Shown in pieces: positions 31,427 through 63,731 of a stretch of DNA of 64,000 bases. The stretch lies in the NCBI GenBank assembly GCA_964035545.1, contig OZ037773.1, positions 2,172,751-2,236,750 on the forward strand, in the 5' to 3' direction. Each line of letters starts with the position of its first letter. Within the stretch, counting starts at the first letter, position 1. The translations under genes and the position numbers were made by a program. The DNA is from Bugula neritina. Lineage: Eukaryota; Bryozoa; Gymnolaemata; Cheilostomatida; Bugulidae. Under the pieces are notes generated by a model. That model saw only the letters and a list, made by a program, of their open reading frames with translations. It was not told the origin of the DNA and searched no databases.

Positions 31427-32979
31427 ATAACAATATAATAACAATATAGTTCATATCAAATAATGTTATGCAATGGTATTTGATACTGCGACTGCTTTCT
31501 ATAAAACATTTTATAGTTGTACCATTTTTAGGTAATATAAATGAGGATGGAAACTTGTGGTTAATTTTATATTCCTGTTATCATAAAATATGAATATAAA
31601 TTTCACAAAAAGCTTTATACAATATCAAGATATTCATATATTTTAGCTATCATCTACAGACTGTGTGAGGGTCGTACAATTTTGTTTTTTTTTTAATTTG
31701 TGACGACAAATTTTGGAATTTCTGATCACCTGTTTCCAGTCGGCTCTGTAATCCTTGTATTACAAAACTAACAGTATTGCTGACTTTCATTGCATGCTAT
31801 TCTTAGCTACTGCAACACTCATGCTGTGTAATAACTGGGCTAGCTTCATGATGAAAGAGTGTTGCAGCAGCTAAGGATAGCATGTGCCGGGGAATTTTTA
31901 AATTATTTTTCTTGAGTAGAATTTAAAGCTTATTTGACAGTTTATAGAGTACCGAGTAGCTTTCAGTTAAAGTAATATGAGCCTATGCAATCTCTGCCAG
32001 CATTAATCTTGCTCTAACAGATTATATTGATTTCAGTATTGATTAATCAAATTTAGGATGTCAATGTTTTCACAAACTGCTGCTTTTTCAATAAAATGCA
32101 TTTTTCATTTTCAACGAATGAAAATTTATCTAATCATAAATGAAAACAAAGGTCACTGTATTATTGCTGTTTTAGAAAAGATTAAATCGAAAAAGCTGAA
32201 AACGATATTGGAAGTTGAAGATCAAATGAACTCAATACAGAAACAGAGGGCTGTTACTACTCATACGAATAAAAGTATTTACTGGTTATAGCATATGCAT
32301 GGAATTTCTGCTAAAAATAATGATAATAGTATTAGACCATCGGCAATAATAGTTAAAACTTTAACTTATGTCTGCTAAATTGTGAAAATGTGCTATTTTA
32401 ATGTTTTATTTCAAAACCATAATTATTATAATTGATTCATTTTTGTCAAATTTATTTTATTTAGAAACAAAACAGTGTCAAGAAAATATGACATTTAGAA
32501 ATATACGATGCTTGCATGTTATATATTAGGGTGAATAAAATTGCGGACAAAAAATAAGCCATTACAAAAAAGGTGAATTGTCTTTTTGATTATCATACTA
32601 TAAATCATAATACAAAAATAAATATAGAATATGTATAGCAATGCTAAAGTATTGTTTATAAAGCAAAGATTTTATCTCAACCAAAGCGTTCAGTAAACAA
32701 ATAAAATTCCTTGAGAGAAAATTGGAATAGAGTTGTACACAAGGAGTAGAAGGTCTTATCAAGTAATCAATAACGGAAAGTTCAGTTAGAAATGCTTGTC
32801 AACAGCCAATCAAATTTCAGATCTCAACCAGTAGGCATTTGGCTACAGTTAATGTTTTTGTGCCTCAACTTAAATAAGTTTAGTTAAGTAATATAGGCTT
32901 AGAGTTTTATGTTAAGGGAAATAGTTGGTTAAACTCAGCCATCTGGATAGAAAGAGAATATGAAGTGATGGAACTGATT

Positions 32980-35900
32980 CTACCAGCGTTTTCCTTGCCT
33001 GAGGTGGCAGTCATAAGTACCCTTGCCATGCTTATTCTTTATAATCCAGAAAGAATCAGTGATTTTCCCATTCAGTTCATCATCAACCTACACAATATTC
33101 ACACAAATAGAGAACAGGGAATATAAATATGAATGCATAAAAATTGTGTGAATATTTGTTGAATGACTTGGGACCAGAAGGGCAATTATTGATTTTGAAT
33201 GACTGTATTGATAATCATGGCATGCCGACATATTAATGAAAACACACAATAAAACTTTCCCATGTCGTTATTTTAATATTCATCACTTACCCATTCAACA
33301 AATATGTGGGTGGAGTTACTGATATGGAACTTATTGTACCCATAGTTACGGACTCGATATGCACTCCAGAAAGGTTCGTCTTTGGTGAAAGGACTGTGCT
33401 CAGCATACATCCCCTGTAAATAGTAAGTATATACATCCCATGTAAATAGTAAGTATATACATCCCATATAAATAGTAAGTATGTACATCCCATGTAAATA
33501 GTAAGTATGTACATCCCATATAAATATTAAGTATATACATCCCCTGTAAATAGTAAGTATATACATCCCATGTAAATAGTAAGTATATACATCCCCTGTA
33601 AATAGTAAGTATATACATCCCATGTAAATAGTAAGTATATACATCTCCTGTAAATAGTAAGTATATACATCCCATGTAAATAGTAAGTATGTACATCCCC
33701 TGTAAATAGTAAGTATGTACATCCCATGTAAATAGTAAGTATATACATCCCATGTAAATAGTAAGTATATACATCCCATATAAACAGTAAGTATATACAT
33801 CACATGTAAATAGTAAGTATATACATCCCATGTAAATAGTAAGTATATACATCCCATGTAAATAGTAAGTATGTACATCCCATGTAAATAGTAAGTATAT
33901 ACATCCCATGTAAATAGTAAGTATGTACATCCCCTGTAAATAGTAAGTATGTACATCCCATGTAAATAGTAAGTATATACATCCCATGTAAATAGTAAGT
34001 ATATACATCCCATATAAATAGTAAGTATGTACATCCCATGTAAATAGTAAGTATATACATCCCCTGTAAATAGTAAGTATATACATCTCCTGTAAATAGT
34101 AAGTATATGCATCCCCTGTAAATAGTAAGTATATACATCCCATGTTTGTTTGTTTGTTTGTTTGGTTTATTTCATCAAAGGTATTTAATAACACAAGGAC
34201 ATTAGAAAATGCCAAGGAGGCGATGATGAGGCCCATTGCGCTATAGCCTAGCTAGTCATGCGCGGGCCAACACGAGCTGACAGCGACTCTATCCAGAAAA
34301 ATACAAAAAAAATACAACTATTCTAACAGATAAAGCCTCAGCTTCCTCCCAAATTCATTAGGGTTGCTAATTGACCGTAAAGGGATTGGCAGTTCATTCC
34401 ATAGTGCCACCTCCTGATAACAGTTTCTTCTGTGACCTGCTGCTGTTTGAGAGTGAGGAAGGGGGAGATTTATGAATGATTGACGTGTATTGATAGAGTG
34501 AGTGGGAAAAAAATTGTCAGAGTAGAAAAAAGAATGAGCTTTCTTTAACACTTTAAAACGGTAAATCTGGTATATTGAGAGAACTTTATGCTTAGTAAAT
34601 AGAGGCGCTGATGGATGGTCAAACGGTTTTTTGTTCATGATACGCATTACCTTTTTTTGAAAAATAAAAATCTTGTTTAGATGGGTATTAGCTGCATTTC
34701 CCCAGGCCTCTGCACAATAATTTAACTTGGAATTGATGAAAGAATTATATATCAAAAGTAAAATTTTTTGAGGGAGATATTCAGAACATCGGTATATTAA
34801 TCCACTAAGTGGTCGTAATTTTGTAAGTAGGTTTGAGATGTGCAAGCTCCAATTTAAATTTTTATCTATTTGTACACCTAGAAAAGTTATGCTGTTAGAG
34901 TAATTTATAGGTCTTCTATTTAATAATATACAGTTTTCTAGAATTTGAAAAGGATTTTGGTAGTTTTTTAAAACAATATAGTTGCATTTTTCATAGTTTA
35001 TAGTGAGTTTGTTTTTATTGCACCAAATTGACAGAGAGTTTAGATCTTGATTTATAGCTTCCAAATGGGAGTTCAAATCTTTTGATTCAAAAAATAAATT
35101 AGTGTCGTCGGCATAGAAAATGGGATTAAAAAGTTTAAATTGTTGAGCAAGATCGTTTATATATATCAAAAATAAGGTAGGGCCCAAGACAGATCCCTGG
35201 GGAACCCCACAGGTCACTGATCGTGAACTTGATAAGGTTGCATTTACTAGTGTGGAATGACTTCGGTTTGATAGGTAGTTAGCAACCCATGACACTGTGG
35301 ATTCACTAAAACCAAGTTTTCTCATTTTTGCAAGTAAAATATTGTGATTTATGGTGTCAAAAGCCTTACTAAAATCTATAAAAATTCCGAGAACGCAATT
35401 TCCATTGTTAAAAGCTTCGAGCGTATTATTTTTAAATTTAACAACAGCATCTGCAGTACTTAAATTTTTTCGAAAGCCATATTGATTCTTAGAAATCAAA
35501 TTTTTAGATTCTAAAAAGTTTAAAATTTGATTGTTAACAATTTTTTCAAGTATTTTACTAAAAATGGGGAGGATTGAAATAGGGCGGTAGTTTTCACATC
35601 TGTCATGAGAACCTTTTTTGTAGAATGGTAATATTTTAGCAGTTTTAATTTGCGCTGGAACAATTTTTTCTTCTATGCTTTTGTTAAATAAATAGGCAAG
35701 TGGTGTAGATAGTGAAATTTTGCAAAATTTGATAAGTTTAGTCGGGATATTGTCTAAACCTATAGCTTTCTTGGAATCTAGTTTTTCAATGATCTCAATT
35801 ATTTGAGATTCATCAGTTTTTTTTAAATGAAATTCTTCTTTAGTAATATTTGTCAACATTGAGTAGGTATCGGAGTTCGAATTTGTAAAATTTGAAGCTA

Positions 35901-38900
35901 GTTTTTGGGCTATTGTTGAAAAATACAGATTGAAATTGTTAGCTATATCCATATTGCTATCTAGCATGGTCTCAGAGTCCTCAACCGAATACAGTTTTGA
36001 TGAAAAGCATCTTTTGTTTAGTTTGGCTTTCCCTGTTTGTTCATTTATAAGTACCCAAAGCTGCGAACTGTTACAATTGCTAATAAAAGCTTTAAAATAA
36101 TCATATTTAGCGGTTCTCAGATCAGCATTCAAATTATTTCTAAAAGCATTATATCTTTTTAAAATCTTTTTATTCATTTTATGTAAATAGTAAGTATATA
36201 CATCCCATGTAAATAGTAAGTATATACATCCCATGTTAATAGTAAGTATATACATCCCCTGTAAATAGTAAGTATGTACATCCCATATAAATAGTAAGTA
36301 TGTACATCCCCTGTAAATAGTAAGTATGTACATCCCATGTAAATAGTAAGTATATACATCCCATATAAATAGTAAGTATGTACATCCCCTGTAAATAGTA
36401 AGTATATACATCCCATGTAAATAGTAAGTATGTACATCCCATGTTAATAGTAAGTATATACATCCCATGTAAATAGTAAGTATATACATCCCATATAAAT
36501 AGTAAGTATATACATCCCATATAAATAGTAAGTATATACATCCCATGTAAATAGTAAGTATATGCAGTTATTAAACATACAGCTAGCAAACATACATACA
36601 CCCCCCTCCCCCCCCCCCCCCCACAGCTGTTTATCAACTAACAACACCAAACATAATAAGTTTACATTCAGTCCCAATAAAATCATAGTTTTTACCAAAA
36701 ACACTGCATATTCCGTCATACAACTTCTTATTCATTTATCATATATGAACTTTGCAGGTTCAACAAATTAAGAAATAATATTTGAATACTTTTTCAAGGC
36801 CACCCGATGGTCACAGGTTTTGATAATACTCTTGGTCCAAAAAGTTTAATTTCATCTTTCACATTTTTTGTTCACACTTCACATATTGTAGGATATGAGT
36901 ACAGCCAATTAATCTTGCTTATGCTGCCATAGAATATTTCAAAATTCTAAGCAACCAATCAGGTGCTAGCAAGTGATAGACTTACAGCTGATCCAGTTAT
37001 AATATGAATGGGTGCATTTGGTTCAGTGTACGGGTGGTCATAACTTCCATTACATATCTACAAATTTATTAAAAACACACTAACACTAAATTGTTGACTC
37101 CTGTATAACATCATAACCACATAAAACAAAGTAAATAATAAAATTACTGGAAACTAAAAGCAATATAATAAAATACAATGTCTTATCACAACACTTACAT
37201 TAAATGAATATAAGTAGAGTTAGGTGACAATAATAATATACTATCAGATGTAGCCAAATTATACAATCAACCATGGTATTTTCAGCAACACAAAGGATTG
37301 ATATAAGATAGTAAAATACAATGACAATGCATTAACCTATTTATAACTGAAACAGAATTAAATAATTCAGTACAAAATTGAGTTAAAGTTCACAATTAAG
37401 TAGTGAAAGCAATACTATAGTTTCTGGCTTTTAGTCAGTAACAAAGCAGTTACTGGGTTGGGGTATGAAATAGAAGGGTGCCTTCATGAAATCCTGAGAA
37501 CTTATCCTAGCAAGCACAGAATGCTGCAAGTTTTCTATATAACTATATAAGTTGATAGAAAATACAAACCTTTCTATTATAAAGAGGCCAGGACCGTTCG
37601 TAGAAATGTTCGTGTGCTCCGATATAAATATCAACCCCGGAGTCATAGAACAGATCTTCAAACGCATACCTTGTCTATAAACAAATGTTACATAATTGAA
37701 CAGCTAAATTAGTGGAAAGGTATAACAAAAATAACTATACAAAGTAAACAATTATTATAGTAATATTAAATATTATCGTTATATAATACTATTATTTTAT
37801 TATATAGTGTTTTATTTTTACAAGAGGCACAGTATACAAGCTAAATAAAATCATGATATGCGTTTATTTAGTTTTTACAGCCTGAGAAGTCTACTTCAAT
37901 TCTTAAAAACCGAGGCAGTGATATCAGCATGGGCAAAAGAACTCCGCACATCTCATCTATTCACGCAGTTTATGAGAATCACTGTTATGCATACCAGGGT
38001 AGTATAAAGTAAACGCTTTTTGCACCGAGACAAACATAGATTTACATGTCAGTAAAGTACTTACAAAACCTTCATAGTACGTGCAGTCATTAGCATTTGC
38101 ATTTGAGCAGTACATCGGTTTGTGACCTAAGACTATCAACCAAGGTCGTTCTGCTCGATTTTCATTCGCCTTCTATAGACAAAAGAGTGAAAACTTACAC
38201 GATGAATAAATAATTATTAAAAAGTGATTGGACACACAGCATACTAAATTAATTCAATTGTACAATTATCTAACTATTTTTAGAAATGGCCAATTGGATG
38301 ATATTACCTTTAAATCTTCCTTCAGCCATTTTTTCTGTTTACCAATAAGTCCTGGCCCTGTGATATCTTGAAAGAAATAGATTTCAGTGTTGATTGTGAT
38401 GATGTGAGCCGGCCCATAATCAAAGCTACAACACACAGCATTAATATGTTTATTATAGTACCCTAAAAGAGGACACAACTTCAATTTATGCAATAGTTAG
38501 TTGAAATTTTAGAGTATTTATTTACTAGCTTTGATATGATTTCGATAATTTGCTGTTAGAAAGCAATAAGACAAAATGTAATTTGCTCATATGAGAGCTT
38601 GTTACTATTTCGTTAACTTAAGAAAGTATGCAAAACTAAAGCAAAATCACCAGTTACAATAGATATGAAACGAAATAGGTCTGCATACAGTAAAATAGAG
38701 TAATAGTATAATAATGTACTGCCAACAAAGCAGTACATTATGAGGGAACTAAAATAGATATCAAATATCAAATCTTAGACTTTGAAATGAAAACGAGTCC
38801 AATATGCTTTTATTTATTAGTTTGTTATCAGCATTGGCCCAGGTCAATAGTTTACAAATCCATGTCATTACTGACTGCATGGTGCAGTCTCCCAACTCAT

Positions 38901-41900
38901 GGAGAGAAAAACATAACAAATAACAGTAATATAACAGTAGAAAGTAACACAATATTCACGTGATAATGACCTACTTATAATGCTAAAGGCTGTGAATTGT
39001 TCTTTTAGTTATCATCAGCTTTTAATGAATTCAACATTGAGAACAATAATATGCTGAGGTTGAGCCATGGCAACAATTGTTTATCATGGCTTAGCATGAG
39101 ACATTTTCACTACAATGATCATTGAACCCGAGCAGAAAGGTTATTCATGACAAAATTTTCTACAAAAGAACTTAATACCACTGAAAAGTTATCACTGCTG
39201 TATCACTAATAACTAACACTGTATCACTAATAACTAACACTGTATCACTAGTTACTAACACTGTATCACTAATAACTAACACAGTATCACTAGTTACTAA
39301 CACTGTATCACTAATAACTGACACTGTATCACTAGTAACTAACATTGTATCACTAATAAAGTTAACACTGTATAACTAGTAACTAACACTGTATCACTAG
39401 TAACTGACATTATATCACTAGTAACTAACACTGTTTAACTAACACTGTACCACTAATAACCGAGACTGTATAAACCCACCTGTACCACAATCCTTCACCA
39501 TCTCCTCCTTTCTTAGGCATGGAGAACCTGTTTCTATAGTTACTAAAGTTATAGCCTCTCTCATGATTGCCCACTGCTGTCATATACGGCACGTAGGCAG
39601 CAACGCTCTGTATCTGGTCCATAAACATGTCACCTATTCTTGCATTTTGCTACAAATATAGAATTCAGCCACTCAGAGCAGAACTACCAACATTTTACTT
39701 AGAAGCAGTAAGGGAAAAATTGACATAGCCTAAGTTCTTTAATTTTATATTAAATTTTGGTTTGGGGCGCGGGGTTGAAATTCTTGCGAGAACATAACTT
39801 CTTTTGCTACATTTTTAATCTAGAACACAGGCTTTTCTCAATTTCTCCATTCCTGCACCTACCTCCAACATTTTATATCTAAACTTTGCTCATTACTCTG
39901 TTTTATAAGCTATATAATTACATTTAAATATTTTAAATTCATACAGAATGGAACAAATGACATTCTTTTTGTAAATGTATAAATCATTATATTAATATAT
40001 AAATTATAATAAAACTTTAGCACAAAAAACTAAATTGCCAGTGTAAGTGTTTGAACTCCCCAACAGTTTTGTGAAAATACAAGCCTAATTTTGAACTAAA
40101 CAGCTGCTCAAAAACAGGAAGTTCAGTTGAAAGTATTTAGACGGATGACATTGTATTCAGTATACTCACGTCTTCCATATTATATGCAAAGTCACCTAAA
40201 ATATATAATATATTGCTGAATATCATTACTATAATATAAGTTACAGCATATTTACTAAACATAACATACAAAAAACATACATGTATTTTCACCAGTTTGG
40301 GCTACTGTCACATGTTCTTCTACATCATAAAATATTATACATTATACTTTTCTAATATTAACCTGCATATGTATAATAGCATGCAATTTTACTACTTGCT
40401 AGCGTGACATGTACTTTTACTACTTGCTAGCGTAACATGCACTTTTACTACTTGCTAGCGTGACATGTACTTTTACTACTTGCTAGCGTGACATTCACTT
40501 TTACTACTTGCTAGCGTGACATGCAATTTTTGGAAAACATATCATTGTGCAATACTTATCCATATGCTTAGCCACCTTCTACTAACATATATAAACAATA
40601 CCTGTTCCACATGTGGAATGTGGTACAATTTTCTAGACTTTTGTATCAAGTTAGTATAAAAGTAGATATGGTACTTTATTTATACACATTAGTTTACTAC
40701 CATATTATACCACACAGCTCTACAATAAAACACTATTATCTATCACAACAGGACATCCCTTGATTTTAATTCTGATAGAGATATCACGATATTTTCAGAA
40801 CTTTTTGAAAGAACCGACATTATTTTAACTTTGTAACTCGCTAATAGGAAGTGATGTCATTTAATACATTACGCGATCATTTTTCAAACAGTGCCCTACA
40901 CAAATTATTTGTATGAGTAACTTGATTTCAACTGGTACCTAGAAAAATATGTGCTACGAAATTTGAGTTATGTTTTTACAAAAAAAAACTTTACCTCAAC
41001 AAAATACATACCAAAATTTAATTATTATGTAACTGACTTATGAAGCATTACAAAAGATTCAGCTAAAATAGCAAGACCAGTATGAAAATACATTCACTTT
41101 TTAAAAATATACATAAGTTAATTTTAAAACTAGTTAAATTGCAATAAAACACAAGCCCAAGTTAGCTATTTATCTAAATCCATTCCTTTTTATACTTAAA
41201 CCTAAGTCAGAAGACTTGACGACTCAAGATTACTTGAAAACATCCACGGGTTCATAAACCTAGCTATGAAGCCTTTGCAGTAGGCTGAATAGACTTGTAC
41301 TAACATACGTTGCAACATTGTAATAGCACATTATATTATACTGTGACATTTTAATGACATATAATCCTAGACTTAGAACTCAGGAACAGCTGACAACCTA
41401 TTATAGGACTGGTGACTCACCCACATGAAACACGGCATCAATTGATCTCATCTCAGCCTCTGTCTGAAGTCTACCGATAGATCTACCATTTACATTGCCC
41501 AAGTCCCCGTAGATGGCCACAACTGGTGACCAGTCGGGCCCTGTGATAGGGGCCCGGTATGAGAAGATAGCTGACCAACCGGCATCTTCATTCCCAACAC
41601 GATAGTCTGTAACGTACAGGAAAGTTAAATAACTATAACTGTTTTGACTCCAATATCTGACTTATTTTGTAAAATGGACTCAATGTATATTGTCATAATA
41701 GTAAGTGACATAAAAATTACTGTAGAATTTTGCTGGTTTCAAATTGGTCATGGTAGCTCTGTGTATGAATAGCTGACGCTTTTCTGTCCCTCCATCAGTA
41801 AAAAGAGTTACTGTAGCATTTGCCTCTTTCCACAAAGAAGTGCCTTGAAGATTGTATTGTACGACTCCTTTAGTATTTTGAAAAGTTGTCCAGGTTGCAA

Positions 41901-42413
41901 CCATATCGCCATTGTATTCTACAACATACACAGCAGCTAACTCGATAAACAAACTCTGGTATATGTTTATAAAAATTAATAAGGGTAAAAACTGACATTT
42001 TTGAAACAGCCAAAAATATTTTTAAAAAAATTAGTAGCATAGACACTGTGAACTGCTTTGAAATATGTGCATTATAACTATTTTAATCTTTATAAAACTG
42101 AGACATTGTTCACTATCAATACATATTAGCATTATGTAATACGTCACTAAATCTCAAAATGAGAAGCTTAGGATCTGGCTGTTTAAATTATAGAGTGTTA
42201 CTTGCCTCCTATGGATAGATGCACTTGGCGAGGGTATCGAAGGTCTTGTGGGAAAGGAAAATCAGTTGCACCAACAGACAGAATTTTATCAGAGTCAGCA
42301 TTTGATTTTAAACTTGGAATGTAAGTCTTGAATAAACCGCCAACAGCAGACACTGAGATAATTGAGGCACTAAATAACAATAGTGCACAGCAGGAGAAAA
42401 GCTGAACATGCAT
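32980..42413 (-). CDS. Purple acid phosphatase type 7 (left copy)
   Basis: Eleven exons: 42206-42413, 41721-41918, 41421-41606, 40170-40195, 39480-39649, 38308-38425, 38065-38172, 37570-37674, 36986-37057, 33291-33413 and 32980-33087. All phases close and give 473 residues. Residues 1-23 are a signal peptide (LLLFSASIISVSA). A fibronectin-like N-terminal domain (VHLSIGEYNGDMVATWTTF) precedes the metallophosphatase core. Dinuclear-metal ligands are all present: GDLG (Asp170), GDFAY (Asp199, Tyr202), GNHE (Asn234), GHKPMY (His319) and GAHEH (His359, His361). It is an ACP7/PAPL-like secreted or lysosomal phosphomonoesterase. Intron 1 is GC-AG (AG|GCAAGT). Exon 4 is a 26-base microexon. Residue 362, in the AHEHxYER motif, is Phe where the right copy has Ser. 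Intron 9 contains the 26-bp acceptor minisatellite and a LINE, which may alter splicing of exon 10. Confidence 0.95.
33414..34142 (-). repeat. 26-bp splice-acceptor minisatellite, block 1
   Basis: About 28 units of 26 bases, ending exactly at the 3' splice site of phosphatase exon 10. In the sense direction a unit is ATACTTACTATTTACAG (intron end) followed by GGGATGTAT (exon start). Variants have TTTACAT or TTTACAG before GGGATG. About a third (the CCCCTG or CTCCTG units on the plus strand) keep the acceptor AG. There are no stops in any of the three sense frames, which creates long Tyr-rich frames of period 26 residues. Confidence 0.97.
34143..36180 (-). mobile_element. Non-LTR retrotransposon with intact RT frame, inserted in the array
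   Basis: Frame 34318-36177 (619 residues from the Met at 36177) is uninterrupted. Landmarks run in order: KAIGLDNIPTKLIKF, YRPISILPIFSKILE, NQYGFRKNLSTADAV, GIFIDFSKAFDTINH, CGVPQGSVLGPTLFLIYIND and the catalytic FYADDTNLFF, then the CR1/Jockey-like C-terminal block (NSKLNYCAEAWGN). No endonuclease domain is present, so it is 5' truncated. On the minus strand it ends with a short GC-richer 3' UTR, AATAAACC, and a (CAAA)n tail (plus-strand GTTTGTTTGTTT at 34145-34164). It shares the orientation of the host gene. The intact frame suggests recent insertion and an active relative elsewhere in the genome. Confidence 0.95.
36181..36565 (-). repeat. 26-bp splice-acceptor minisatellite, block 2
   Basis: About 15 further units of the same array, on the other side of the LINE insertion. 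The unit farthest from exon 10 joins normal intron sequence (AATAACTGCATATACTTACT sense), which is also the sequence next to the single unit in the right arm. A C-rich run follows at 36600-36622. Confidence 0.97.
36566..36985. other. Rest of phosphatase intron 9 (left copy)
   Basis: Includes a plus-strand poly-C run (36600-36622, one T interruption). The mirror position in the right arm (about 49597-49640) is a shorter G run. No exon. Confidence 0.6.
39180..39470 (+). repeat. Intron 5 minisatellite, expanded in left arm
   Basis: About 12 units of 21-24 bases with core AACTAACACTGTATCACTA, directly next to the donor of phosphatase exon 5. The right arm has only about four units at the same place (46838-46930). 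Confidence 0.85.
39705..39861. mobile_element. MITE family B, left-arm copy
   Basis: Right end TCTCAATTTCTCCATTCCTG then CACCTA; left end GCAGTAAGGGAAAAATTGAC is a diverged inverted copy. It predates the duplication because the right arm has it too (46446-46609). Confidence 0.75.
40385..40535 (+). repeat. 28-bp minisatellite with GCTAGC (left arm)
   Basis: Five units containing TTACTACTTGCTAGCGTGAC, in phosphatase intron 3. The right arm has four units at 45820-45935. Confidence 0.85.
40536..41420. other. Phosphatase intron 3, remainder (left copy)
   Basis: AT-rich. 40740-41340 has no clear counterpart in the right-arm intron, which is shorter there, so one arm gained or lost about 0.6 kb. 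Confidence 0.5.
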
Positions 42414-44528
42414 TCTTGTAGTTGATGTTCACTTCAACTTCTGGACACAGAAATCTAAATTAAAATTAGGTTTATTTAGGTTACAGCACCAAGTGTAGCG
42501 TATAAATTGAAATACACGCGCAGTCACACTGCCCTTGTCACTAGCGGTAACTCTAAGTGACTTTTACTTTCACTCTGTCCGGTGATGTATATCACACTCA
42601 ATGTGCCTCAGTGACCTTTACAGAGAGTCAGAATGACGCTGACAGTGAGTCAACGTCAAACACAATCGAAAATCAGTATCACAATGACAATCACAATGAG
42701 AATAACTGTCAATGAATTATACGATGACAATCACACACACAACGGCTACCGCTATCGGCTATGGCCGATGAGTATGAGTATCAGTATGAGTATGTGAATA
42801 AGAAAATTTTACTTTTTATTCAAATCGAAGTTTATCAAAAATCTTTGCGGCTAGCCTCTGTGCACCACTGTGACTGTATGTTAGTCAAAATACATTAGGT
42901 AATTTAGATAAGTGTTCAAAACTTGTGCCTTTTTGCTTAGTTGCTTGGTGGGTTATTACATCACTAGCGAAGACTTGCTTATAAACAAAAGAAGAAGGTC
43001 AAGGAGAATCACGTGCATGAATGTTTATTTTTATTATTCTTCTAGCCACGCCCCGTGAGTCGAAATGTAGAAAATACCTATCAATGCAAATTATTTATCA
43101 TGAAAACCACTGAAATAAAATATTTATTGCAATTTAATGATAAAAAATGTAAATTGTTTTGACAGTAAATTTGCAACTGTGAAAAAAGTTATTGAGTCAG
43201 AGGCTATACAATTCAGAAAATTGAATATTTCTTTGAAAAGGCTCATTTTGAGCAGATGACTCTAACAACAACAACTAGGATTATACATAAAATAGTCTAT
43301 ATTGCGCAAAATTATTATAAGTTTTATAACTTAGAACATTTGCAACTTCAAGTAAATTGGCTGCATAGCTATCTGCACAACATGCTGTCCTTTAATCGAG
43401 TAGTTTTGTAGGAAACTAATCTTCATATTTTTATGAAACACAGTGACTAATGTACTATATTTTATAAATCATGTTGATCTACTTTTATGATTGATGTGAA
43501 ACTGAAGTTTGCTCTAGCTACTAGGTCTTGCAGTGGTCAATGATGCGGTTGAAAACAACTTCCACCAGTAAGCGTGCAATTAACATCAGGTCTTTGTCGT
43601 TTATACCAACCCGCAACATAATAATATTATATTATTTTATAACCCTAGTTGTTATTATTAGAGTCATCTGCTCAAAATGAGCCCTTTCAGAAAAACATTT
43701 AATTGTATGAATTTTATAGCCTCTGATTTAGGAGTTTTTTCACAGTTACAAATTTACTGTAAAAACAATTATCAAATTTTAATACATATTCTATTTTAGT
43801 GGCTTTCATATTAGATAATTTGCATTGATTAGGTATTTTCTATGTTTCAACTCACGGGGCGTGGCTAGAAGGTAAATAAAAATAAACATTCAAGCACGTG
43901 ATTCTCCTTTACCTTCTCCTTTTGTTTATAAGCAATTCTTCGCTAGCGATGTAATAACCCACCGAGTAGTAGTAATAGTAACTAAATCATAAGGCTCAAT
44001 TTCCGCAAACTTAACCCTTGTTTGAACACTTATCTAAATTATCTAATGTATTTTAATTATCGTACAGTCACAGTGGTGCGCAAAGGTTAGCCGCAAAAGT
44101 TTTTGATAGACTTCGATTAGAATAAAAAGTAAAATTTTCCTATTCACTTACTCATAACTCATAAGTCATAGGCCATAGCCGTTGCGACTGTGATTGTCAT
44201 TGTGAGTATCAGTATAATTCATTCATTGTGATAGTTGTTCTTATTGTGATTGTCATTGTGATACTAATTTTCGATTGCGTTTGACTTTGACTCAATGTCG
44301 GCGTCATTCTGACTCTCGATAAAGGTCACTGAGGCACATTCACATTGAATTTGATTCACATCGCCGAGCAGAGTGAAGCTGAAAGTTAAAGTCGTTTAGA
44401 GTTACGGTTACTGACAAAGACAGTATGACTGTGGGTGTATTTGTAAGCTACACTTGGTGCTGTAACTTGAATAAATTTTAGTTTTAGATTTCTGTGTCCA
44501 GAAGTTGAAGTGAACATCAATTCCAAGA
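42414..44528. promoter_or_regulatory. Shared divergent 5' region of the two phosphatase genes
   Basis: The two genes point away from each other from this 2.1-kb region. The arms continue as mirror images up to 43279 and 43643, leaving a unique centre of about 363 bases. Both sides carry imperfect GACAATCACAATGA-type repeats (42650-42740, mirror 44190-44270) and the sequence CACGCCCCGTGAGT / ACTCACGGGGCGTG (43049 and mirror 43853). A pyrimidine-rich CTGTGTCCAG just before each start codon could be a 5' UTR acceptor. No TATA box is clear. Confidence 0.5.
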
Positions 44529-47500
44529 ATGCATGTTCAGCTTTTCTCCTACTGTGCACTATTGTTATTTAGTGCCTTAATTATCTCAGTGTCTGCTGTT
44601 GGCGGTTTATTCAAGACTTACATTCCAAGTTTAAAATCAAATGCTGACTCTGATATAGTTCTGTCTGTTGGTGCAACGGATTTTCCTTTCCCGCAAGACC
44701 TTCGATACCCTCGCCAAGTGCATCTATCTGTAGGAGGCAAGTAACACTCTATAATTTAAACAGTCGGATCCTAAGCTTCTCATTTTGAGACTCGGCGATT
44801 TATTACCTAATGCTAATATGTATTGAAAGTGAACAATGTCTCAGTTTTATAAAGATTAAAATAGTTATAATGCACATATTTCAAAGCAGTTCACAGTGTC
44901 TATGCTACTAAAATTTTTAAAAATAGTTTTTGCTGTTTCAAAAATGTCAGTTTTTACCCTTATTAATTTTTGTAAACATAATACCAGAGTTTGTTTATCG
45001 AGTTAGCTGCTGTGTATGTTGTAGAATACAATGGCGATATGGTTGCAACCTGGACAACTTTTCAAAATACTAAAGGAGTCATACAATACAATCTTCAAGG
45101 CACTTCTTTGTGGAAAGAGGCAAATGCTACAGTAACTCTTTTTACTGATGGAGGGACAGAAAAGCGCCAGCTATTCATACACAGGGCTACCATGACCAAC
45201 TTGAAGCCAGCAAAATTCTACAGTAATTTTTTTATGTCACTTACTAATATTATGACAATATACATTGAGTCCATTTTACAAAATAATGGTCAGATATCGG
45301 AGTTATTTAACTTTCCTTTACGTTACAGACTATCGTGTTGGGAATGAAGATGCCGGTTGGTCAGCTATCTTCTCATACCGGGCCCCTATCACAGGGCCCG
45401 ACTGGTCACCAGTTGTGGCCATCTACGGGGACTTGGGCAATGTAAATGGTAGATCTATCGGTAGACTTCAAACAGAGGCTGAGATGAGATCAATTGATGC
45501 CGTGTTTCATGTGGGTGAGTCACCAGTCCTATGATGGGTTGTCAGCTGTTCCAGAGTCCTAAGTCTAAGATCTAAGTCTAGGATTATATGTCATTACAAT
45601 GTTACAGTATAGTATAATGTGCTATTACAACGTTACAACATTATATTATAGTATAATATGTTACATTACTATTTTATATTAACTTGATACAAAAATCTAG
45701 AAAATTAGACTACATTCCACATGTGGAACAGGCATTGTTTATATATATTAATAGAAGGTGGTATGGCTAAGCATGTTATAGCCAAGTATTGCACAATGAT
45801 ATGTTTTCCGTAAATTGCATGTCACGCTAGCTAGTAGTAAAAAGTACATGTCACGCTAGCAAGTAGTAAAAGTGCATGTCACGCTAGCAAGTAGTAAAAG
45901 TACATGTCACGCTAGCAAGTAGTAAAAGTACATGCTATTATACATATGCAGGTTATTATTAGAAAAGTAAATGTATAATATTTTATGATGTAGAAGAACA
46001 TGTGACAGTAGCCCAAACTGGTGATAATGCATGTTTTCTGTATGTTATGTTTAGTAAATCTGCTGTAACTTGTATTATAGTAATGATATTCAACAGTATA
46101 TTATATATTTTAGGTGACTTCGCATATAATATGGAAGACGTGAGTATACCGAATACAATGTCATCCATCTAAATACTTTCAACTGAACTTCCTGTTTTTG
46201 AGCAGCTGTTTAGTTCAAAATTAGGCTTGTATTTTCACAAAACTGTTGGGGAGTTCAAACATTTACACTGGCAATTTAGTTTTTTTGTGCTAAAGTTTTA
46301 TTATAATTTATATATTAATATAATGATTTATACATTTACAAAAAGCATGTCATTTGTTCCATTTTGTATGAATTTAAAATATTTAAATATAATTATATAG
46401 CTTATAAAACAGAGTAATGAGCAAAGTTTAGATATAAAATGTTGGAGGTAGGTGCAGGAATGGAGAAATTGAGAAAAGCCTGTGTTCTAGATTAAAAATG
46501 TAGCATAAAAAGTTATGTTCTCACAAGAATTTTAACCCGCGCCCCAAACCAAAATTTAATATAAAATTAAAGAACTTGGGCTATCTCAATTTTTCCCTTT
46601 CTGCTTCTAAGTAAAATGTTATTAGTTCTGCTCTGAGTGGTTAAATTCTATATTTGTAGCAAAATGCAAGAATAGGTGACATGTTTATGGACCAGATAGA
46701 GAGCGTTGCTGCCTACGTGCCGTATATGACAGCAGTGGGCAATCATGAGAGAGGCTATAACTTTAGTAACTATAGAAACAGGTTCTCCATGCCTAAGAAA
46801 GGAGGAGATGGTGAAGGATTGTGGTACAGGTGGGTCAATACAGTGTCAGTTCCTAGTGATATAATGTCAGTTACTAGTGATACAGTGTTAACTTTAGTGA
46901 TACAGTGTTAGTTATTAGTGATACAGCAGCGATAATCTTTTCAGTGGTATTAAGTTTCTTGGTAGAATATTTTATCATGAATAACTTTCTGCTCGGGTTC
47001 AATGATTATTCTAGTGAGAATGTCTCATGCTAAGCCATGATAAACAATCGTTGTCATGGCTCAACCTCAGCATATTATTGTACTCAATGTTGAATTCACT
47101 AAAAGCTGATGATAATAACTAAAAGAACAATTCACAGCCTATAGCATTATAAGTAGGTCATTATCACTTGAATACTGTGTTACTTTCTACTGTGATATTA
47201 CTGTTATTTGTTATGTTTTTCCCTCCACCAGTTGGGAGACTGCACCATGCAGTCAGTAATGACATGGATTTGTAAACTATTGACCTGGGCCAATGCTGAT
47301 AACAAACTAATAACTAAAAGCATATTGGACTCGTTTTCATTTCAAAGTCTAAGATTTGTTATTTGATATCTATTTTAGTTTCCTCATAATGTACCACTTT
47401 GTTGACAGTACATTATTATACTATTACTCTACTTTATGCAGACCTGTTTTGTTTTATATTTATTGTAACTGGTGATTTTGCTTCGGTTTTGCATACTTCT

Positions 47501-50165
47501 CTAAATTAAAGTAAAAACAAGCTCTCATATAGGCAAGTTACATTTCATCTTATTGCTTTTTAACATCAGCAGATTATGTAAATTGTACCAAAGGTAGTAA
47601 ACAGATACTCTAAAACCTCAACTAACTATTGCATAAATTAGAGTTGTGTCCTCTTTTAGGGTATTATAATAAACATATTAAAGTTGTGTGTTGTAGCTTT
47701 GATTATGGGCCGGCTCACATCATCACAATCAACACTGAAATCTATTTCTTTCAAGATATCACAGGGCCAGGACTTATTGGTAAACAGAAAAAGTGGCTGA
47801 AAGAAGATTTAAAAGTAATATTATCCAATTGGCCATCTCTAAAAATAGTTAGATAATTGTACATTTTAAACCAATTTAGTATGCTGTGTGTCTTTCGCAT
47901 ATTTTTATCATTTTTCTCATTTATGCTACTTGATTCTTATCCAGTCACATGTTCCATGCTGATAATTTATTTCAAATGTAAATTTTAATTTTCTCAATTA
48001 TAGAAAGCAAATGAAAATCGAGCGGAACGACCTTGGCTGATAGTCCTAGGTCACAAGCCGATGTACTGCTCAAATGCAGATGCGGATGACTGCACATACT
48101 ACGAAGGTTTTGTAAGTATTTCATTCACATTTAAACTTATATTTCTCTCAGTGCAAAAGAAAGCCACTCTATACCATCCTGATATGTAAAACGGTTATTC
48201 TCATAAACTGCGTGAAAAGATGAGATGTGCCAAGTCAAACATTGTGTTTATTTGTTAGACTGTTCGCTTTTTTGCATTGAAAGTTCTGGGGCCGCTGCCG
48301 ACATCATAGCGTGCTATTTTACAAGTTTAGAGTAAACTTTTTAGGCTGTACACAGGAAATAAACCGAATACTGTGTATCTTGTTGAAATAAAAGGCTATA
48401 TAATGATATTATATAGTAATAATATATATAATATTACTTTGATAATTGTTTACTTTGTATATAGTTATTTTTGTTATACCTTCCCACCAATCTAGCTGTT
48501 CAATTATGTAACATTTATTTATAGATAAGGTATGCGTTTGAAGATCTATTCTATGACTCCGGGGTTGATATTTATATCGGAGCACACGAACATTCCTACG
48601 AGCGGTCCTGGCCTCTTTATAATAGAAAGGTTCGAATTTTCTATGAACTTATAGTTATATAGAAAACTTGCAGCATTCTGGCTTGCTAGGATAAGTTCTC
48701 AAGATTTCATGAAGACACCCGTCTATTTCATACCCCAACCCAGTAACTGCTTTGTTACTGACTAAAAGCTAGAAACTATAGTATTGCTTTCACTACTTAA
48801 TTGTGAACTTTAACTCAATTTTGTACTGAATTATTTAATTCTGTTTCAGTTATAAATAGGTTAACTCATTGTCATTGTATTTTACTATCTTATATCAACC
48901 CCTTTGTGCTGCTGAAAATAGAATGGTTGATTGTATAATTTGGCTACATCTGATAATATATTATTATAATATATTATTATTATCTACTTAATAAACAGTT
49001 GGCTATATTCATTTAATGTAGGTGTTGTGATAAGACATTGTAATTTATTATATTGGTTTTAGTTTCCAGTAATGTTATTATTTACTTTGTTTTGTGTGGT
49101 TATGATGTTCTACAGGAGTCAACAATCTAGTGTTAGTGTGTTTTTAATAACTTTGTAGATATGTAATGGAAGTTATGACCACCCGTACACTGAACCAAAT
49201 GCACCCATTCATATTATAACTGGATCAGCTGTAAGTCAATCACTTGCTAGCACCTGATTGGTTGCTTAAAATTTTGAAATATTCTATGGCAGCATAAGCA
49301 AGATTAATTTGCTGTACTCATATCCTACAATATATGAAGTGTGAACTAAAAATGTGAAATATGAAATTAAACTTTTTGGACCAAGAGTATTATCAAAACC
49401 TGTGACCGTCGGGTGGCCTTGAAAAAGTATTCAAATATTATTTAGTAATTTGTTGAACCTGCAAAGTTCATATATATATGATAAATAAATGAGAAATTGT
49501 ATGACGGAATATGCAGTGTTTTTGGTAAAAACTATGATTTTATTGGGACTGAATGTAAACTTATTATGTTTGGGATTGTTAGTTGATTAACAGCTGTGGG
49601 GGGGGGAGGGGGGCGTATGTTTGTTTGCTAGCTCTAGGGGGGCGTATGTATGTTTAATAACCGCATATACTTACTATTTACAGGGGATGTATGCCGAACA
49701 CGATGGTTTCACCAAAGACAAACCTTTCTGGAGTGCATATCGAGCTATTAACTATGGATACAATAAGTTTCATATCAGTAACTCCACTCACATATTTGTT
49801 GAATGGGTAAGTGATGCATATTAAAATAAGACATGGGGAAGTTTTATTGTGTGTTTTCATTAACATGTCAGCATGGTATGATTATCAATACTTGGTGAAG
49901 CACACCTGTATTCTGTAATTTACTGGATTAATTGTATAACAGTCATTCAAAATTAATAATTGCCTTTCTGGTCTCAAGTCATTCAACAAATGTTCACACA
50001 ATTTTTGTGCATTCATATTTATGTTCTCTTTTCTCTATTGGTGTAAATATTGTGTAGGTTGACGATGAACTGAATGGGAAAATCACTGATTCTTTCTGGA
50101 TTATAAAGAGTAAGCATGGCAAGGGAACTTATGACTGCCACCTCAGGCAAGGAAAACGCTGGTAG
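44529..50165 (+). CDS. Purple acid phosphatase type 7 (right copy)
   Basis: Eleven exons: 44529-44736, 45025-45222, 45329-45514, 46114-46139, 46660-46829, 47697-47814, 48004-48111, 48525-48629, 49159-49230, 49684-49806 and 50058-50165. All exon lengths equal those of the left copy; the product is 473 residues. By my count 17 residues differ (about 96% identity). Differences cluster in the signal-peptide region and in exon 10 (HDGFTKDKPFW here, HSPFTKDEPFW in the left copy). All seven metal-ligand positions are kept, and the usual AHEHSYER motif is present. Intron 1 is GC-AG, as in the left copy. Intron 9 ends in a single ATACTTACTATTTACAG. This copy is likely to show the ancestral structure. 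Confidence 0.96.
45820..45940 (-). repeat. 28-bp minisatellite with GCTAGC (right arm)
   Basis: Four units, mirror of 40385-40535. Confidence 0.85.
46446..46609. mobile_element. MITE family B, right-arm copy
   Basis: Mirror of 39705-39861; begins TAGGTGCAGGAATGGAGAAA. Confidence 0.75.
46838..46930 (-). repeat. Intron 5 minisatellite, short allele in right arm
   Basis: About four units with core TAGTGATACAGTGTTA; counterpart of the 12-unit array at 39180-39470. Confidence 0.8.
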
Positions 50166-51566
50166 AATCAGTTTCATCACTTCATTTTCTCTTTGTATCC
50201 AGATGGTTGAGTTTAACCAACTATTTCCCTTAACATAAAACTCTAAGCCTATATTACTTAACTAAACTTACTCAAGTTGAGGCACAAAAACATTAACTGT
50301 AGCCACATGCCTACTGGTTGAGATCTGAAATTTGATTGGATGTTGACAAGCATTTCTAACTGAGCTTTCCGTTATTGATTACTTGATAAGACCTTCTACT
50401 CCTTGTGTACAACTCTATTCCAATTTGCTCGCATTGTTTGACAATATATTATACAAGGGATTTTCATTTGTCTACTAAAAGTTTGGGTGGAGATAAAATC
50501 TGTGCTTTATAAACAATACTTTAGCATTGCTATTTATGTTCTATATTTATTTTTGTATTATGATTTATAGTATGATAATCAAAAAGACAATTCACTCTTT
50601 TTAGTTTAATAGCTTATTTTTTGTCCTCAATTTTATTCACTCTAATATATAGTATGCAATCATCGTATATTTCTAAATGTCATATTTTCTTGACACTGTT
50701 TCGTTTCTAAATCAAATAAATTTGACAAAAATAAATTAATTGTAATAATTATGGTTTTGAGATAAAAGATTACTGTAGCACATTTTCACAATTTAGCAGA
50801 CATAAGTTAAAATTTTAACTATTATTGCCAATGGTCTAATACTATCATCATTGTTTTAGCTGAAATTCCATGCACATATGCTATATAGCCATTTAATATC
50901 TTGTTCATACGAAAAGTGGCAGCCCTCTGTTTCTGTGTTGAGTTCATCTAATCTTCAACTTCCAATATGGTTTTCAGCTTTTTCGATTTAATCTTTTCTA
51001 AAACAGCAATGATACAGTGAGTGACCTTTGTTTTCATTTATGATTAAATATATTTTCACTCGTTGAAAATGAACGTTGCATTTTATTGAAACAAAAGCAG
51101 CAGTTTGTGAAAACATTGACATCCTAAATTTGATTAATCAATACTGAAATCAATATAATCTGTTAGAGCAAGATTAATGCTGGCAGAGATTGCATAGGCT
51201 CATATTACTTTAACTGAAGGCTACGTGGTACTCCATAAACTGTCAAATAAGCTTTAAATTCTACTCAAGAAAAATAATTTAAATATCTTTAGCTGCTGCA
51301 ACACTCCTCCATCACGAAGCTAGCCCAGTTATTACACAGCATGAGTGTTGCAGTAGCTAAGAATAGCATGCAATGAAAGTCAGCAATACTATTAGTTTTA
51401 TAATACCAGGATTACAGAGCCGACTAGAAACAGGTGATCAGAAATTCGAAACTAATTCGAGATAATATGTTGTCACAAATTTAAATAAAAAACAAAATTG
51501 TTTGAGCAAACAGCCTGTAGATGATAGCTAATATATATGAATATTTTAATACTGTATGAATAAAGC

Positions 51567-52399: not shown

Positions 52400-63731
<11,332 letters not shown>

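Follow-up and report, generated by a model that had tools for sequence, protein, structure and literature searches.

In Bugula neritina, a 3′ splice site has been multiplied into a minisatellite. In the left-arm gene of a phosphatase pair, on the minus strand, 43 units of 26 bp, phased on the junction of intron 9 and exon 10, occupy positions 33405-36561 of the window (the whole 64,000-nt stretch of DNA that was analysed, from contig OZ037773.1 of assembly GCA_964035545.1, positions 2,172,751 to 2,236,750). This acceptor-born minisatellite is real and, within the search made, unique in this genome. We read the array as neutral or mildly harmful, and we assign a probability of about 0.5 to the following explanation: an array born by slippage at a 3′ splice site is tolerated in one gene of the pair, where leaky competition among acceptors makes it a burden and not a source of isoforms. 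As judged from the predicted products, the left gene probably yields some mis-spliced, mostly unproductive mRNA.

The two genes are divergently transcribed and lie in a large inverted duplication (31700-43080 / 43830-51460); further phosphatase paralogues are found about 65-245 kb onward on the same chromosome. The left gene (32980-42413, minus strand) and its right-arm paralogue (44529-50165, plus strand) each have 11 exons and an intact frame of 473 codons, with splice sites that are usable in both copies and a GC-AG intron 1 in both. Sequence comparison identifies the pair as purple acid phosphatases of the ACP7 type: the right-arm protein is above cut-off for Pur_ac_phosph_N, Metallophos and Metallophos_C, a solved purple acid phosphatase structure matches it (E 9.4e-39), and the named bryozoan relatives among the proteins listed are ACP7. 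Bryozoan relatives among the matches listed include Watersipora subatra (68%) and B. neritina ACP7 (61%). This B. neritina protein is probably another member of the cluster, because its C-terminal end resembles the translated paralogues. The window's own phosphatase protein was absent from the best 120 of 1303 protein matches. Exon 9 of the left gene (36986-37057, minus strand) ends in GSA, in phase 0, and exon 10 (33291-33413, minus strand) starts with GMYAEH. Intron 9 measures 3572 nt in the left gene versus 453 nt in the right one.

Units were numbered in gene sense, from the distal unit 1 (36561) to the exon-proximal unit 43 (33405). The unit consists of the 17 terminal bases of intron 9 and the 9 opening bases of exon 10, and the closing 9 bases of unit 43 are exactly those that open the exon. 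An earlier note on this DNA had described about 43 copies of this very junction, ending exactly at the exon, and all three statements hold. With TRF, the 26-bp repeat was detected at 33405-34145 (28.5 copies) and at 36181-36563 (14.7 copies), with 93% matches in each case; with 43 such units it belongs to the minisatellites (tandem units of approximately 10-100 bp in several near-identical copies). Phased on the junction, the proximal block (33405-34145, minus strand) comprises units 16-43, all 28 of them intact, plus a 9-base tail of unit 15, and the distal block (36181-36561, minus strand) comprises units 1-14 plus the opening 17 bases of unit 15. Only this unit is split, by an insertion, the other 42 being intact. 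The span of 33411 to 36565 previously given for the array also takes in positions 34146-36180, which are a LINE.

This element (34146-36180, minus strand and gene-sense) interrupts unit 15 between unit bases 17 and 18. It has a reverse transcriptase domain (RVT_1, E 6.4e-41) in a frame that is open for 620 codons in gene sense, a truncated 5′ end, a (CAAA)n 3′ tail and a target duplication of CAT or ACAT, that is, the reverse transcriptase, 5′ truncation, simple-repeat tail and target duplication of a non-LTR retrotransposon. Among the 40 genome matches scored out of 150 candidates, the query included, all had a printed identity of 99-100%, and at least 13 of those other than the query, with a printed identity of 100%, extend from position 5 to position 2030 or beyond on the 2035-base query. 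Across the 40, starts are scattered and the 3′ end is mostly common, two of them ending well before it. Since the copies elsewhere are near-identical, the LINE is young. Taking into account also that five unit types are common to both flanking blocks, the insertion should be later than the mature array.

Variation among the 43 units falls mostly at three positions (counted from 0): 16 (T in 31 units, G in 12), 25 (T in 30, C in 13) and 14 (C in 35, T in 8). The acceptor AG has its G at position 16. The claim that a subset of units keeps the acceptor was confirmed, as TTTACAG is retained in 12 units, nine of the 28 in the proximal block (16, 17, 18, 23, 32, 34, 36, 38 and 43) and three in the distal block (7, 10 and 12). 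T replaces G in the other 31, which end in CAT (23 units) or TAT (8 units). The 42 intact units comprise thirteen distinct variants, whose order along the array is not periodic. Unit-order runs gave no clear multi-unit duplication, the longest run being of 4 units, a length reached or passed in 81 of 500 shuffles; higher-order duplication blocks were therefore rejected, and the amplification mechanism cannot be read off the array. Long G runs in gene sense (left arm, 36601-36622, 15 + 6 G; right arm, 49598-49642, 9, 6 and 6 G) sit some 25-70 nt before the array or the single right-arm unit, respectively, and a G-quadruplex near the expansion site is possible on the basis of these runs.

The exact unit, ATACTTACTATTTACAG followed across the junction by GGGATGTAT, has a single copy in the right arm (49667-49692, plus strand), where it spans the intron 9/exon 10 junction, with exon 10 starting at 49684; the array unit thus carries the splice site, with TTTACAG followed by G in 12 of 43 units. 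As the flanks on either side of the array match those of this lone unit, the array replaces exactly one unit. The 215.85 Mb of the genome (295 contigs) were searched with a 25-mer, allowing up to 2 mismatches. All 42 reverse matches fell within the array and the sole forward match was the right-arm junction, as the earlier note had it for the paralogue, with no match elsewhere in the approximately 216 Mb; a reversed-pattern control gave no match on either strand. A dispersed or genome-wide element was thus rejected, the unit being confined to the array locus and its mirror copy. The portion of the paralogue cluster that was retrieved contains eight exon 10 matches, seven of them with a legible exon start; each of these seven shows a single acceptor, of different sequence, and lacks an array within 40 bp. 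One copy is therefore, on the simplest reading, the ancestral state. A family-wide feature was likewise rejected, as none of 50 exon rows (49 exons) from the fetched cluster paralogues has an array of 10-70-bp units within 40 bp of the exon edge.

The many competing acceptors proposed in the earlier note are reduced to a smaller set. The 12 CAG units offer a local sequence near-identical to the real exon 10 acceptor, and their use in splicing is putative. The other 31 units lack an AG at the junction and cannot serve as acceptors, so 43 competing acceptors were rejected. A branch-point-like TACTTAC, claimed for each unit, is found in 42 of the 43 and is missing from unit 39. The adenine of CTTAC lies 10 nt before the AG of its own unit, a spacing shorter than is usual in animals, and the idea that each branch point serves the unit in which it lies was rejected; that adenine should lie 36 nt before the AG of the following unit, as calculated from the unit sequence.

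Products were predicted by joining exon 9 to each CAG unit, with the AGs internal to the LINE left out. The exon-proximal site reaches the normal stop. Among the 11 extra TTTACAG acceptors, nine are predicted to lead to premature stops: units 7, 10 and 12, with which the LINE is included, and units 17, 18, 23, 32, 36 and 38. Unit 16 (27 units before the normal site; +702 nt, +234 aa) and unit 34 (33639-33664, minus strand, CAG followed by GAG; 9 units before it; +234 nt, +78 aa) are predicted to remain in frame. A further AG, 3 bases into the exon part, would also be in frame in unit 34 (+231 nt) and leads to an early stop in unit 17. An in-frame insert, which the earlier note expected for n in multiples of three, is predicted for n = 9 and n = 27 and is the exception among the extra acceptors. 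An in-frame share of 2/11 does not exceed the chance expectation of one in three; it gives no sign of selection on the frame or length of the array, and selection on phase was rejected.

A tolerated burden is supported by a left gene without any frame break, by the low dN/dS between the arms and by the premature stops predicted from nine of the 11 additional CAG units. The array would have been built by replication slippage or unequal exchange and would have been functionless at birth; one early G-to-T change would have spread along with the copies, the LINE insertion being the last event. Unit 43 would be retained as the working acceptor because its loss would put unit 42, a CAT unit, at the exon edge. 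The 11 other CAG units may then compete weakly with it, so that a portion of the transcripts would splice early, mostly carrying a premature stop that would lead to degradation provided that nonsense-mediated decay operates here. The array would in this way lower the output of one gene in a conserved pair. Against this reading, the clean frame of the left gene could also be due to conversion between the arms.

Not far behind this leaky competition stands a silent array, in which the exon-proximal acceptor alone would be used, as set by exon 10 sequences or by distance effects, the array being an ordinary intronic repeat of incidental splice-site origin. We consider it possible, although the less probable of the two. 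It accords with a left gene intact across its 11 exons and with units 39-42, just before the real acceptor, being devoid of AG, so that the closest upstream AG is 130 nt away. Scoring the units as splice sites, a check proposed in the earlier note, bears on the same point. The acceptor matrix was built on 39 distinct family acceptors with exon 10 left out, and its training scores (5.3-15.8) were obtained without cross-validation. It gives the exon 10 acceptors 3.0 in the right gene and 3.5 in the left one, and the CAG units 2.6-6.5, ten of the 12 falling at 2.6-3.5 and the GAG-variant units 17 and 34 reaching 6.1 and 6.5, so that unit 34 is the array's top-scoring acceptor. The matrix nonetheless discriminates poorly: in the right gene, 31 of the 302 AGs that are not acceptor sites equal or exceed the score of the gene's exon 10 acceptor, nine AGs within the LINE exceed the 3.5 of the exon-proximal site, and an AG at 36583, upstream of the array in left intron 9, scores 7.8. 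As it cannot single out the real acceptor, equal scores do not mean equal use, and what these values indicate is a similar local strength of the CAG units and the real site. Of 62 family acceptors, the nine of exon 10 that were read have the lowest scores with matrices trained without exon 10, which suggests that their recognition may depend on other signals. Against a silent array stand the 12 units with nearly the same local acceptor sequence, 11 of which lie upstream of the normal site and are therefore transcribed before it.

The acceptor array might also act as a fast-mutating dial, the number, phase and AG status of its units setting the share of productive transcripts from the left gene, which we regard as unlikely. 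Were it true, length changes would retune dosage with the coding sequence untouched, and an occasional in-frame insert of 78 or 234 residues would result.

An incipient pseudogene, in which the array and the LINE would reflect lost constraint and the clean frame would be due to recent age or to conversion from the right arm, is in our opinion rather improbable. The LINE does sit in the same intron as the array, the left copy carries a Ser-to-Phe difference at HEHSYER, and exon 10 differs between the arms at 14/123 positions (6 synonymous, 8 nonsynonymous), which makes it, together with exon 7 (11/108), one of the two most divergent exons. However, the 11 exons show no stop, frameshift or broken splice site, and the 31 synonymous and 20 nonsynonymous differences between the arms give an overall dN/dS of 0.018/0.112 = 0.16, a pairwise value that cannot be attributed to the left gene. 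Of 50 bins of 150 bases, 32 show an arm-to-arm difference of at most 7%, and the exon 10 bin shows 9% divergence. An island of 15-30% arm divergence was observed at 47900-48500, in four 150-base bins that comprise exon 7 and its flanks, perhaps from conversion by another paralogue; as this island is more divergent and far from the array, the divergence of exon 10 is not specific to the array.

Functional isoforms with an in-frame Tyr-rich insert, the use implied by the earlier note, appear very unlikely. The main unit types are indeed stop-free in the three sense frames, the exon 10 frame is open across the entire proximal block (297 aa), and units 16 and 34 are predicted to give full-length products. 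The stop-free property is mildly unusual at most, since it recurs in all three frames in 508 of 20000 sequences obtained by simple single-base shuffling of the unit, and it does not extend to four of the 42 intact units (5, 13, 28 and 39), in which changes create a stop in some frame when the unit is repeated. Frame is kept by just two of the 11 extra acceptors. The insert would follow residue 397, inside Metallophos_C (residues 388-450) and beside GSAG; the predicted peptide has a high content of Ile, Leu, Tyr and Trp, and no insert was present at the matching place in the sequences of two bryozoan relatives. That the copy number or the LINE reflects a collapse or join error is hardly credible: tandem arrays and young LINEs do pose problems for assembly and a single assembled haplotype was covered, but the variant units follow a non-periodic order and the assembly report gives 132-fold HiFi coverage and a QV of 53.7 (PMC11480708).

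Other arrays lie nearby. A 21-bp array constitutes a second exon-edge minisatellite of the phosphatase gene: in the right arm (46838-46926, 4.3 copies) it begins 9 bp past the end of exon 5, and in the left arm it occupies 39198-39442 (11.6 copies), a degenerate 35-bp row (39401-39488) extending there into the exon 5 edge. Its GTGATACAG resembles the exon end GTGGTACAG. A 28-bp array is mirrored in intron 3 of both arms (40380-40530, 5.4 copies; 45818-45934, 4.1 copies). At 52771-52887, the repeated unit of an 18-bp array contains CTACAGGTAGTA and the array adjoins, by eye, an apparent minus-strand exon end.

The left gene may be viewed as a natural multi-acceptor test construct whose built-in control is the opposite-arm gene with one acceptor. 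With a dozen near-identical acceptors, some of them 26-52 nt apart, RNA could show which site wins: the first one, the nearest one or the one defined by the exon. The array also illustrates a possible route for the birth of a minisatellite from a splice junction, and how a one-base change that abolishes the site (AG to AT) can be propagated along repeats.

Among the matches listed in searches of open-licence PMC text, we recognised no minisatellite built of acceptor sites. The units of Epstein-Barr virus IR1 are far longer than those of the Bugula array. IR1, with its W exons, likewise repeats splice sites in tandem, variable numbers of which are used, and its units, unlike those of Bugula, are described as entire exons plus a promoter, with known products (PMC5834210). 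Internal tandem repeats at exon-intron boundaries have been described in human paralogues within segmental duplications, where boundary repeats are reported to form novel introns (PMC2812944). The Bugula array similarly lies at an exon-intron boundary, differs in copy number, 43 to 1, between recent paralogues and could alter splicing; unlike those novel introns, its unit repeats an existing intron-exon junction. The 38-bp VNTR in TERT intron 6 is likewise an intronic minisatellite; the copy-number-dependent effect on splicing is that of TERT, whose repeat is reported to lie more than 1 kb from the junctions and to act via RNA pairing (PMC3948165). In contrast to this VNTR, the Bugula array repeats the splice site itself.

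The closest known case is the human gene 6-16 (IFI6/G1P3), of whose minisatellite the Bugula array is, by analogy, the acceptor-side counterpart. The 6-16 minisatellite reportedly lies at an exon edge and, as Turri, Cuin and Porter are said to have described in 1995, provides multiple splice donor sites for the transcript. Both arrays have a unit that holds a splice site, a position at the exon edge and several sites that may compete. They differ in that the 6-16 sites are donor (5′) sites serving the transcript, whereas those of Bugula are acceptor (3′) sites known here from genome sequence, most units of the array having lost the splice site.
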